14,278 nt of DNA, taken from positions 1 to 14,278 of the forward strand of contig JAEORN010000332.1 in NCBI GenBank assembly GCA_016840825.1, given 5' to 3'. The stretch comes from Candidatus Thorarchaeota archaeon (GTDB lineage Archaea; Asgardarchaeota; Thorarchaeia; Thorarchaeales; Thorarchaeaceae). The notes below the pieces were generated by a model that made no database searches, was not told the origin of the DNA, and saw only the letters and a program-made list of their open reading frames with translations. Of the stretch, positions 6,770 to 10,792 are shown piece by piece (position 1 is the first letter of the stretch; each line of letters opens with the position of its first letter). The translations under genes were made by a program, and so were the position numbers.

Positions 6770-7357
6770 ATGAGAGATCAGGACGATGGTAGCAAAGTTA
6801 TGAAAGCGGTCCTAATAGGCGACGGTGGTGTAGGGAAGACATCAATTAGACGCAACTATCTTGGAGATGAGTTTATTGAAGGTCATATTGCAACCATTGG
6901 TGTCGATCTAGCAACCAAGCGGGTCTTATTTAACAAAGAGATAATCAAATTCATTATTTGGGATCTTGCAGGCCAACCCTCATTTGCCCAAGTTCGTGGT
7001 CATTATTATCATGGGTGCAATGGTATAATTCTTGTATATTCTACTGTAGATCGTGATTCTTTCGATAATGCAAGCAAGTGGCTTGTAGAGGCGTATAAGA
7101 ACATGGGTCCTCTTCCTCCAACCGTGATTGTAGGCAATAAGACTGATCTTCGAGAAGGTAGACCGAAATCCCTAATTGTTACTCCTGATGAAGGATTGAA
7201 ATTCACTAAGTATTTCATCGAGAAGCTTCAGGTCCCTGCTGTCTTCAAGGAAACTTCTGCAAGAACCGGGTACAACATCGAGAACACATTCACAGACCTT
7301 CTTCAAATGATGAGTGAAGCCCAAGAGGATAAAGAAAGCGGCCTCTTTATTGGATAG
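6770..7357 (+). CDS. Ras/Rab-like small GTPase
   Basis: From the ATG at 6770 this is a 195-residue protein, typical for the Ras superfamily. All motifs are present: G1 GDGGVGKT (residues 17-24), G2 T42 within the ATIGVD switch I segment (the Rab/Ran-like TIG triplet), G3 WDLAGQ (64-69, with the catalytic Gln at 69), G4 NKTD (123-126) and G5 ETSA (161-164). It should bind and hydrolyse GTP as a molecular switch. The C-terminus (ESGLFIG) has no cysteine, so there is no prenylation signal of the eukaryotic Rab or CAAX type; membrane attachment, if any, must use another route. Such eukaryote-like GTPases are expanded in Asgard archaea. It ends 118 bases before the PadR-type regulator, and the palindromic promoter between them argues for separate transcription. 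The longer start at 6674/6677 cannot be excluded. Confidence 0.9.
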   Translation: MRDQDDGSKVMKAVLIGDGGVGKTSIRRNYLGDEFIEGHIATIGVDLATKRVLFNKEIIKFIIWDLAGQPSFAQVRGHYYHGCNGIILVYSTVDRDSFDNASKWLVEAYKNMGPLPPTVIVGNKTDLREGRPKSLIVTPDEGLKFTKYFIEKLQVPAVFKETSARTGYNIENTFTDLLQMMSEAQEDKESGLFIG

Positions 7358-7403
7358 TTCAGAAGTCACTCCTGACTCATGCGATACCACAACTACAAGT
7401 ATA

Positions 7404-7421
7404 TATATCGACCCCGATATA
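7404..7421. promoter_or_regulatory. Operator-like palindrome 1 (TATATC-N6-GATATA)
   Basis: The arms TATATC (7404-7409) and GATATA (7416-7421) flank the spacer GACCCC. The inverted repeat extends to nine perfect pairs (7402-7410 with 7415-7423). It lies directly upstream of the PadR-type regulator gene and beside a TATA-like element, the usual position of a self-repressing operator. Assignment to that regulator is inferred. Confidence 0.65.
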
Positions 7422-7427
7422 TAATAT
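7420..7427 (+). promoter_or_regulatory. TATA-like box of the copper operon
   Basis: TATAATAT sits between, and overlaps the edges of, the two palindromes. A start of transcription about 26 bases downstream would fall near 7450, leaving a leader of about 25 bases that contains the Shine-Dalgarno site for the ATG at 7476. Confidence 0.5.
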
Positions 7428-7442
7428 ATCCGTACAGATATA
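7425..7442. promoter_or_regulatory. Operator-like palindrome 2 (TATATC-N6-GATATA)
   Basis: The arms TATATC (7425-7430) and GATATA (7437-7442) flank the spacer CGTACA, and the inverted repeat extends to seven pairs (7424-7430 with 7437-7443). It has the same 6-base arms and 6-base gap as palindrome 1, shifted by exactly 21 bases, or about two helical turns, so two dimers could bind the same face of the DNA. Confidence 0.65.
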
Positions 7443-7461
7443 TCCATTGTGATAGAAATAA

Positions 7462-7467
7462 GAAGGA
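7462..7467 (+). promoter_or_regulatory. Ribosome binding site of the PadR-type regulator
   Basis: GAAGGA lies 8 bases before the ATG at 7476. This favours that ATG over the in-frame GTG at 7449, which would fall at about the expected transcription start and next to palindrome 2. Confidence 0.55.
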
Positions 7468-7475
7468 TTGTGATT

Positions 7476-7958
7476 ATGCCCGAAACTAAAGATAGCCAAT
7501 CAGGAGAGATTTCCTCTATACTATCAGATTTCTCTCAGTTCTACATAATGCTCCTCCTTAGCGAAGGCTCCATTCATGGCTATGGAATAATGCGTGCGTT
7601 CAAGAATCGAACTGGGACTTCATTGAGTGCAGGTACACTCTATCCTTTCCTTCAAAAATTGGAAGCTCTAGAACTAGTCAAGAAATCTGGCGAAGCTTCT
7701 GGAAAGCGTCCAAAGATTGTTTATTCTCTAACGAAGAAGGGTGTGAAGTTTACAGAACGTCTTTTCAGACGATTTTCTGCAATAACTACTTCTGCGCTCG
7801 AACCTAGTTTGGAGACTTGCGCAAGTTGCGGTGCTCGAGTATATGATGGAGTCCATTACGAAGAGATTGATGGAGTCAAGCTTGGATTTTGCTGTATACA
7901 TTGCGCAAAGGCATACAAAAACGATCTCTATCTTAATCACGAACATACGGAGCGATGA
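7476..7958 (+). CDS. PadR-family regulator with C-terminal TRASH-like metal-binding motif
   Basis: From the ATG at 7476 the protein has 160 residues. Residues about 19-100 match the PadR winged helix: [18 protein letters not shown], then [18 protein letters not shown], then the wing with YSLTKKG. Residues about 113-150 are cysteine-rich: C115-x2-C118, then C118-x20-C139-x3-C143, with an extra C140. C-x(19-22)-C-x3-C is the signature of the TRASH domain, a metal-binding module of archaeal metallochaperones and of copper regulators such as Sulfolobus CopT/CopR (there joined to a different type of helix-turn-helix). The stop codon overlaps the start of the Cu(I) ATPase gene (ATGA), so it is very likely the copper sensor of that operon, and a repressor relieved by metal is the simplest model. 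The two TATATC-N6-GATATA palindromes upstream are its probable operator. Metal identity is inferred from the pump. Confidence 0.85.
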
Positions 7959-10792
7959 GAATGAGTCAAACCAAGACAAGTAATGACACGAATACTAGAA
8001 TGTCAATGCGGATAGAAGGTATGCATTGTGCTTCTTGTGTTGCAACAATTGAGAAGTCTTTGTTATCACAGGATGGAGTCATCAAAGCTACAGTCAGTCT
8101 TCTTGATGAGAAGGCAGTGATTGAATACGATCCTGCATCAGTCAATAGAGATGTTCTCGAAAAGGCTGTTGAATCTACAGGTTATCGGCCAAAAAGAGCT
8201 ACCATGACTTTGACAATTCAAGGCGAGCCGACCGTATCTGATTGGAACCGCATGACTGAAGAATTGAATACTATTAATGGTGTAATTTCTGCAAGGAGCT
8301 TCCCTGAGTCGAATCGTATGTTAGTCGAATATGACGATTCACTAGTTACATTCAAGATTATTCGTAAGGCTCTCAAGAACATGGGGTTTGAGCCTGAGGA
8401 CTCCGAGAGTGTTCGAGCTGATAGGGAATCGTTGGCAAGAGAGAAAGAGATACGATACTATTCCTTACTGCTTATCTTCTCTACAATACTTACAATTCCT
8501 GTCGTTCTCCTTCATTTTGGAGTTTTAGACGCATTGATCCCTGATGGTATGCTTCGAATGTGGATTATGTTTCTATTGGCTACACCAGTGCAGTTCATAG
8601 GTGGATATCCGTTCTATCAATCGGCTTTGCGTGCAGCTAGACATCTCAAGACAAACATGGATACTTTGATAATGCTTGGAACCACAGCAGCCTATGGTTA
8701 CTCCGTCGCTACTACCTTTGTCCTTACTGGATACAACTCATTCTATGATGCATCGGTGATGTTGATTAGCTTCATTCTTCTAGGCAGAACCCTTGAATCA
8801 ATTGCCAAAGGAAGGACTTCTCGCGCCATTAGAGGTTTGATGGACCTCCAAGCCAAAGTTGCTATCATAATCCGGAATGGGGAGGAGTCGATTGTTCCAA
8901 TCGAGGATGTTGAAGTTGATGATTTGGTTCTGGTCCGTCCAGGTGATAGAGTTCCTGTTGATGGTGAGGTTATTGAAGGAAAATCATCAGTTGATGAATC
9001 TATGATAACTGGAGAACCTCTTCCTGTTGACAAGGAGGTGGGTGATTCAGTTGTTGGCGGAACTGTCAACAAGAATGGAGTTCTTCGAGTTCGTGCTACC
9101 AATGTGGGGCAGGATACTGTGCTTTCGCAAATCGTTCGTATGGTTGAAGAAGCACAAACGAACAAACCACCAATTCAAAGAAAAGCTGATGCGATTGCTG
9201 AGGTCTTCACTCCTGTAGTACTAATTATAGCATTTTCCACCTTTGTCTTTTGGACTTTCTTTGCGAATCCAATCTTTGGAATCGCAGCTGATTGGACCCT
9301 TGCACTTAATTTCACCATCGCTGTCCTTGTAGCTGCTTGTCCCTGTGCACTAGGGCTTGCTACACCAACAGCAATCATGGTAGGCATCGGAAAGGGTGCT
9401 CAGCATGGAATATTGATCAAGACTGGTGATGGATTAGAAACCATTCCAGCTGTAGATACGATTGTTTTTGATAAAACTGGTACACTGACAATTGGTCGAC
9501 CTACTGTGACGGACATGATGACATTTGGTGATGTAAAGGAAGATGAAGCTCTTGCTCTAATCGCCGCTGTTGAGAAGAACAGCGAACATCCTCTTGCTGA
9601 GGCAATAGTCTATGATGCTAGAGAGAAGGGCTTAGAGATAGCTTCCTCCGAAGATTTCTCATATACTACCGGAAAAGGTGTCAAAGCAAAGGTGAATGGC
9701 TCTACAATTCTAGTAGGCAATTCGCAATACATGAATGATAACTCCATTGAAGTCAAGGGATTTGATGAGCATGACAAGACGCTACAACAACAAGGAAAGA
9801 CAACTGTCTATGCTGCTATGGATGGCGAACCATTAGCAATTCTTGCGATTGCTGATAAGCTGAAAGATAGTTCAATTCAAGCAGTTCGGACACTCAAAAA
9901 GATGGGAATCGACGTTTGGATGCTAACAGGAGACAAAGAAACCACTGCGAAATCAATCGCTGCGAGTGTGGGCATTGATAATGTTCTCTCAGAAGTACTT
10001 CCAGATGAGAAAGCTGATAAAATTAAGCAACTCCAAGCTGAGAATCGAGTTGTTGCAATGACTGGTGATGGAGTCAATGATGCCATCGCACTTGCTCAAG
10101 CAGATGTTGGAATCGCTCTTGGCTCTGGAACAGATGTTTCAGTCGAATCTGGTGATATAGTTCTAGTGAAGGATGATCTACTAGATGTTGTCACTGGCAT
10201 TCAACTTGGAAAGGGTACTATGAGTAAGATCAAACAAGGATTCTTCTGGGCATTGATATACAACATAATCTTGCTACCTATCGCTGCAGGACTATTGTTC
10301 CCATCAACAGGTCTCTACCTACAACCACAATTTGCGGGACTAGCAATGGCTCTCTCAAGCGTCAGTGTGGTAACAAATGCTTTGACATTGAACCGTTTCA
10401 AGCCAGAAAGAGTGGTGAGTGAGAAAACTTCTATTCCTCCTGCTGCATACCAAGAGGGCGAAGTAGCTATTGATCCTATTTGTAAGATGAAGGTCGAAAT
10501 TTCCACTACTGAACTGCATTCGGACTACGAAGGCAAACGCTATTATTTCTGTGCTCAGTATTGCAAGGATACTTTCGAAGCAAATCCTGCTGAATACAAA
10601 GAACCTGGATATAATGAACCTACAGAGTCAAAGATTGCAGTTGATCCAATATGCAAGATGGATGTAGACACCGAAACAGCCACTCTAGTAAGTGAATATG
10701 AGGGGAAGAAGTACTTCTTCTGTGCACAGCACTGTAAAACAACATTCGATGCCAATCCTGAACAATACAAGGATCAAGATGTCAGAAATTAG
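7955..10792 (+). CDS. copA: Cu(I)-exporting P1B-type ATPase with two C-terminal YHS domains
   Basis: This 945-residue membrane pump uses ATP to drive Cu(I) out of the cell. An HMA domain carries GMHCASC (C25, C28). A second HMA-like region (about 83-149) has lost its CxxC (GEPTVSDW in its place). Then come the membrane helices, actuator TGEP (352-355), TM6 CPC (462-464), phosphorylation site DKTGT (D506), HP locus (H545-P546) and hinge GDGVND (704-709). The membrane motifs CPC, YN (769-770) and MxxSS (798-802) are those of the Cu(I) class, P1B-1. The hinge continues AIAL where GDGxNDAPAL is usual. After the last helix come two YHS domains, C843-x22-C866-x3-C870 and C900-x22-C923-x3-C927, each opening DPICKM. 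Such domains are more often N-terminal and single. The start overlaps the regulator stop (ATGA); ATG 7961 is a possible alternative. Confidence 0.95.

Follow-up and report, generated by a model that had tools for sequence, protein, structure and literature searches.

The window analysed here, a stretch of 14,278 nucleotides from a Candidatus Thorarchaeota archaeon (GCA_016840825.1, contig JAEORN010000332.1), carries a regulator gene followed by a copper exporter gene. The first (7476..7958, + strand) encodes a protein of 160 amino acids, the predicted binder of the palindromes described below. The second (7955..10792, + strand), which overlaps the regulator's stop codon, encodes a copper P-type ATPase with an HMA domain, an E1-E2 ATPase domain and two YHS stretches; its product scores 625.8 bits as a copper-translocating ATPase (TIGR01511, cut-off 397), with HMA and YHS also matched. 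The regulator probably starts at ATG 7476, behind a putative Shine-Dalgarno-like AAGAAGGA (7460..7467, + strand), rather than at GTG 7449. Directly upstream lies a Ras-family small GTPase gene (6770-7357), as in several other Thorarchaeota (L088, L089, L098, L146, L149), and it still adjoins copA in two genomes where the intervening regulator gene is absent (G036, G040).

A PadR winged-helix domain is present in the regulator (PF03551, 1.8e-14, 53.9 bits for a cut-off of 27). Its tail matches PF11494 (4.3e-06, 27.5 bits for a cut-off of 27) and, below that family's cut-off, PF24273 (0.00057); no Lrp family is among its Pfam matches. The nearest named protein is P0002 of Thorarchaeota (86%). 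TRASH metal-sensor domains are marked by a conserved cysteine set, CxxC ... FCCxHC, and C115, C118, C139, C140 and C143 are invariant in 32 aligned rows. The AF2 model (mean pLDDT 86.2, pTM 0.63) has helices at 5-29, 35-46 and 52-64, strands at 68-73 and 80-85, a helix at 87-111 and a beta-beta-alpha TRASH end; helix 87-111, as seen in the monomer model, is a candidate for the C-terminal dimerisation helix of PadR proteins. The best Foldseek matches are mostly PadR-family chains with a winged helix (4ejo, Rv3488, LmrR), and hsRosR chains are found among the weak ones. Y36 and Y56 are likewise invariant in 32 aligned sequences. From motif context they appear equivalent to Y20 and Y42, the signature tyrosines of BsPadR (PMC6457526).

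Dyads in the regulator promoter

Two exact copies of TATATC-N6-GATATA precede the regulator gene, TATATC-GACCCC-GATATA at 7404-7421 and TATATC-CGTACA-GATATA at 7425-7442, with their centres 21 bp apart. An initial annotation of the sequence had described them as a pair of palindromes with 6-bp arms. Both copies are exact, but the arms can be extended to 7 bp (ATATATC/GATATAT) and the dyads are three in number. Dyad 1, the "floating" copy, occupies 7403..7422, 21 bp before dyad 2, the "core" copy, at 7424..7443. Dyad 3 (7438..7457) is imperfect, with one mismatch in the 18-mer (TATATC-CATTGT-GATAGA, 7439-7456) and two in the 20-mer, and its centre lies 14 bp past that of dyad 2. None of the three is assigned to a strand. 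Dyads 2 and 3 overlap via a common self-complementary GATATATC (7437-7444).

The arms are AT-rich and overlap TATA-like sequence, as would be seen if AT-rich promoter DNA had yielded a palindrome by chance or under the pull of the TATA box. Matches to the 18-mer pattern with up to three mismatches barely exceed chance (15 found against 10.17 expected, a number reached in 16 of 200 shuffles), so that the signal lies in the near-exact copies. These stand well outside the shuffles: 1000 dinucleotide shuffles of the window gave a mean of 0.002 exact 18-mers and never two copies, and when the 200 bp preceding residue 22 of the regulator were shuffled 20000 times, 20 of the shuffles had at least one copy and none had two. 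The 20-mer form with 7-bp arms was found three times at up to two mismatches, against 0.07 expected.

Two candidate TATA boxes can be proposed on the + strand. The first, TATATATA (7400..7407), overlaps the left arm of dyad 1 and is suggested by archaeal promoter layout and by its TATAAATATATC context in relatives. The second, GATATATAATAT (7416..7427), overlaps both dyad 1 (right arm) and dyad 2 (left arm). We prefer the second because the distance from dyad 2 to the ATG is fixed, its TATATC starting 51 nt ahead of the start codon in the window and in the related loci L001 and L002. Equivalents of dyad 1 are found at varying distances before dyad 2, as an exact copy at 16 bp in L002 and a 2-mismatch copy at 18 bp in L001. 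Among 50 regulator promoters having a dyad with at most one mismatch, an A precedes the dyad in 46 and a T follows it in 47; TC continues after it in 33, and AAA stands before it in 23, as in TATAAATATATC. The string ataaaTATATC also occurs in several of the listed copper ATPase promoters. The left arm therefore seems to form the end of a TATA box or to follow one, and the TATA-like element that had been placed between the dyads more probably represents TATA boxes that overlap the left arms.

The PadR-TRASH protein of L002 (Thorarchaeota chromosome CP070658.1; L089 1568-2059) reads CASYG for CASCG, with Tyr at 118. One TRASH cysteine is lost there, yet two exact operator dyads are retained.

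Conservation and spacing of the dyads

Relatives were taken from a scan of genome contigs, as the best 80 loci of 106 confirmed relatives, which with the window gave 81 upstream regions of 200 bp before residue 22 of the PadR-TRASH gene. Of the 80 loci as fetched, 50 include a CopA relative. The N6 site is exact in 9 of the 81 regions, and the same arms with a 7-bp spacer, TATATC-N7-GATATA, are exact in 16; allowing one mismatch raises this to 37, and allowing two raises it to 50. Control stretches of 200 bp further down, at 78 loci, had no exact N6 site, two within one mismatch and three within two, and no N7 match; 50 shuffles of the upstream regions gave a mean of 0.02 exact N6 sites per 81. 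The N6 spacer belongs to Thorarchaeota and Hermodarchaeota, and N7 to Bathyarchaeota, Hadarchaeota, DPANN, Freyarchaeota and others; one Woesearchaeota locus (L076) has a spacer of 8. Fifteen of the 81 regulator promoters lack a dyad even when two mismatches and all spacers of 3-10 are allowed. Conservation in related operons had been expected of a true operator, and the same arms do stand before PadR-TRASH genes in Thorarchaeota, Hermodarchaeota, Bathyarchaeota, Hadarchaeota and DPANN.

Symmetric arm substitutions were considered as proof of a dyad and set aside as weak: degenerate sites show 10 positions with symmetric changes against 88 where the change is one-sided or differs between the arms, and several of the 10 are probably due to chance. 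The clean cases are L035, L066 and L075, the last of which reads TATGTC-N7-GACATA, that is, ATGT/ACAT.

Some loci depart from the general picture. Two Lokiarchaeota relatives (L074, L078) have a diverged recognition helix and a different AT-rich palindrome, TATATAC...GTATATA in L074. In two Hermodarchaeota loci (L013, L018) the PadR-TRASH frame is open for more than 400 nt upstream of 5001, which may point to fusion with a further domain; the 220 nt searched upstream contained no dyad. Archaeal-type PadR-TRASH genes are also carried by L031 and L036, labelled Firmicutes and Latescibacterota, the former with an N7 site within one mismatch; both are probably misbinned contigs.

In a tree of the PadR-TRASH proteins, 10 good N6 loci and 4 site-less loci form one clade (100/99), and N7 loci occur to either side of the midpoint root. 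All 14 members of the N6 clade have T at position 54, a residue of the recognition helix; in the 51 N7 loci this residue is L (38), Q (8), I (3), M (1) or S (1). Two loci, L077 and L078, were labelled N6 on 2-mismatch matches and treated as noise. The spacer label changes once on the tree without them, and three times with them. With these two aside the change is a single event, and a link between residue 54 and spacing is therefore only hypothetical. The single-bp difference confined to one clade provides a natural experiment on the joint change of a dimeric regulator and its operator.

Spacing between dyads was counted up to 45 bp, for dyads within two mismatches. The 24 N6 promoters in this set, which left out the copA promoter of G005 and the island G001 C118 and in which the L014 piece missed its dyad, gave 31 offsets: 16 of 14 bp, 4 of 16 bp and a single one of 21 bp, that of the window itself. 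In the 51 N7 loci the offset was 15 bp in 22 of 39 cases. These distances, 14 bp for N6 and 15 bp for N7, are each 4 bp shorter than the dyad, since GATATATC results where GATATA overlaps TATATC. The 21-bp distance, placing both dyads on one face of the helix, had been seen as the organising feature of the pair; as a general rule it is ruled out by these counts.

Distribution in whole genomes

Sites with these arms and spacers of 3-10 bp were counted in whole genomes, genes at the sites being named by reading translations and copper ATPases being confirmed by NCBIfam. Eleven Thorarchaeota and Hermodarchaeota genomes held 33 sites, of which 24 had the N6 spacer and 9 any of the others. As many as 21 of the 24 exact N6 sites are at PadR-TRASH or copper/metal-exporter loci: nine at PadR-TRASH genes (8 promoters), eleven at copper ATPase genes (7 promoters) and one at the head of a metal island (G001 C118), counted among the metal loci from its surroundings and Pfam names; three are elsewhere. 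The island comprises a MacB-like permease, a YHS-tailed ABC ATPase, HMA proteins and three P-type ATPases. In three genomes (G001, G008, G010) the site-bearing ATPase is on another contig than the regulator. The regulator gene of G006 has no site. Eight of the nine off-spacer sites were fetched and the ninth was read within L098: one, with N4, is flanked by two N6 sites in a copA promoter, and the other eight are in or beside ORFs not resembling copper genes. One subgroup of Thorarchaeota has a separate promoter for copA, downstream of the regulator gene; in its member L098 (2402-3019) this promoter holds two N6 dyads at a distance of 28 bp, between which the 4-bp-spaced dyad lies.

Twelve Bathyarchaeota genomes held 21 sites, 12 of them N7, and 11 of these 12 fell into eight PadR-TRASH promoters, seven of which also have a divergent CopA-type, HMA or YHS gene. 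All nine off-spacer sites were read, and as far as read none is at a copper gene; one, with N8, is near a TRASH-less PadR. Eight mixed genomes held 22 sites, 10 of them N7: six stand immediately at PadR-TRASH promoters, another some 300 bp before such a promoter, and three elsewhere. Six of the twelve off-spacer sites in this set were fetched; among the others, an N8 site in G031 is by its letters the PadR-TRASH promoter of L076.

The class of G002, a Thorarchaeota class, comprises 47 genomes, 41 of which were outside the earlier search; these include G037, the genome of L006, whose site-less regulator promoter was already known. The 41 held 15 exact N6 sites, eight at copper or regulator promoters, seven of these at ATPases (NCBIfam-confirmed, or recognised by an HMA domain for the cut-off G040 C30 piece) and one at a PadR-TRASH gene. 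The other seven comprise two upstream of TRASH-less PadR genes, two in a permease cluster and three in or at other ORFs. Far from being scattered at random, then, the exact sites were at regulator or copper/metal loci in 21 of 24 cases and, in the further genomes, in 8 of 15. Read backwards, the N6 pattern has 2 sites against 24 forward in the 11 genomes, and 4 against 33 in the 47. These spacer-specific and gene-specific counts, with the shuffles, rule out chance or AT-richness as the source of the dyads, and the reading as a chance or TATA-driven palindrome retains a negligible probability.

With the spacer ATATNT, the exact site (TATATC-ATATNT-GATATA) recurs in one unrelated permease/secreted-protein cluster in three Thorarchaeota genomes (L094, L151, L153, each at 1501-1518), and no relative of A1 was found in the 9-15 kb around each.

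A different question is which protein the sites serve. Some other regulator, such as a TRASH-less PadR, could use them as its operator and control both the copper genes and the PadR-TRASH gene. Such an arrangement would fit two TRASH-less PadR genes with an N6 site about 50-115 bp upstream (G059 C11, L155 1501-1518; G064 C84, L156 1501-1518), and G036, where an N6 site stands before copA (C1:265686-265703; L146 1501-1518; 3.16 Mb contig) in a genome with 11 PadR-like matches at E 0.001 in which neither a PadR-TRASH nor a PF24273 match was found. The word is therefore not private to TRASH fusions, and the half-site may be older than the fusion. Yet a full PadR-TRASH protein (E below 1e-60) is found in 11 of the 47 class genomes, and these 11 hold 24 sites, against 9 in the remaining 36. 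Within the set of 41 further genomes, sites at copper loci are present in 4 of the 5 that have PadR-TRASH and in 2 of the 36 that lack it (Fisher p 0.0007, uncorrected for kinship and completeness); G033 has a full PadR-TRASH and no exact N6 site. Spacer length also tracks the PadR-TRASH tree, two weak loci apart, and the site heads PadR-TRASH genes across phyla. We regard control by another regulator as improbable.

A predicted copper-responsive operator

Conservation, genome specificity, the spacer rule and the position before the genes can be read directly from the sequences. They make it likely that the dyads are the operator of the PadR-TRASH protein encoded downstream, which would repress its own gene and the exporter and be released by copper. 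The initial proposal of such an operator over the copper promoter is supported, as a predicted site, by conservation in related operons and by the non-random distribution; on sequence grounds it stands with amendments, namely three dyads, longer arms, the overlap rule and a conserved regulon. The predicted regulon, for uncultured Asgard and Bathyarchaeota lineages, comprises the regulator, CopA, His-rich CopB-type ATPases and the metal ABC/ATPase island. A literature search, with subscription journals mostly outside its reach, found no published DNA site for the PadR-TRASH class among the matches listed, and no paper joining 'PadR family' and 'TRASH domain'. The dyad is thus a candidate site, checked in genomes not used to define it, for a class without a published site found.

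From these observations we infer binding by the protein, the promoter elements, repression, copper as the signal and co-operation. A PadR-type dimer would contact ATATATC with one recognition helix and GATATAT with the other. As long as copper is not in excess, the dimer would cover the TATA box and the start region, excluding TBP/TFB or RNA polymerase, and would repress the regulator gene and the copper exporter as one operon. Cu(I) or a like thiophilic ion on the TRASH domain would cause the dimer to release the DNA, and the exporter would be made. Where dyads overlap with a common GATATATC, two or three dimers could pile up. Steric repression is suggested by the position of the dyad on or after the likely TATA box and by the 51 nt between dyad 2 and the ATG; this position would predict a repressor released by copper.

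A close parallel is CopR of Pyrococcus furiosus, an octamer with an Lrp/AsnC HTH and a TRASH domain, whose cop motif, TTNNCAWWWTGNNAA, lies directly upstream of the BRE (PMC7830388). Both are archaeal copper regulators, here a predicted one, with a C-terminal TRASH domain, encoded beside a copper P-type ATPase, with a semi-palindromic site at several copper promoters. CopR is reported to activate copA, in vitro, and the PadR-TRASH protein could likewise bind the dyads as an activator. The dyad here, in contrast, overlaps or follows the likely TATA box, so that a bound dimer should block initiation, and CopR itself is described as keeping TBP/TFB off its own promoter (PMC7830388). Activation therefore seems unlikely to us. 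The two systems also differ in fold, Lrp in CopR and PadR here, and in motif: the cop motif has no match in the window at up to one mismatch.

Repression by PadR-TRASH dimers can be extended, more tentatively, to a wider scheme, to which we give rather less than even weight. PadR-TRASH proteins would form a cross-phylum archaeal copper repressor family with one half-site. A single loss of 1 bp from the spacer would have occurred in the ancestor of the Thorarchaeota-Hermodarchaeota regulators, together with a corresponding change in alpha3 (position 54). The operators would be modular chains in which neighbouring dimers overlap by 4 bp on GATATATC (period 14 or 15 bp), either sharing a half-site or competing for it, and the length of the chain would tune the copper response. 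Chained dyads raise the question of how overlapping sites are filled.

PadR operators are given as ATGT/ACAT with 8-10 bp between (PMC3506622, PMC5050560). Inside the N6 dyad, ATAT-N8-ATAT fits the spacing of the ATGT-N8-ACAT rule, and its letters differ by one per arm. Bacterial PadR and LmrR proteins resemble the regulator predicted here as winged-helix dimers that read an inverted repeat, with an 8-bp inner distance and autoregulation overlapping the promoter; they differ in the half-site (ATGT, against ATAT-C here), and the one-bp spacing classes by clade and the metal-domain fusion are features of the present system. RosR of Halobacterium salinarum (VNG0258H), placed in the PadR family in PMC4287449, is an archaeal winged-helix relative with an imperfect palindrome of about 20 bp. 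Its motif, TCGnCGACGAGnTCGnCGAC, is GC-rich, and the protein has a reported role in oxidative stress and no cysteines (PMC4287449). Finally, cdPadR1 of Clostridium difficile recognises TACT-N11-12-AGTA (PMC5050560) and, like the present regulator, has two AT-rich inverted repeats in its own promoter; spacing is reported there as tolerant, whereas in the PadR-TRASH loci it is largely fixed within each clade.
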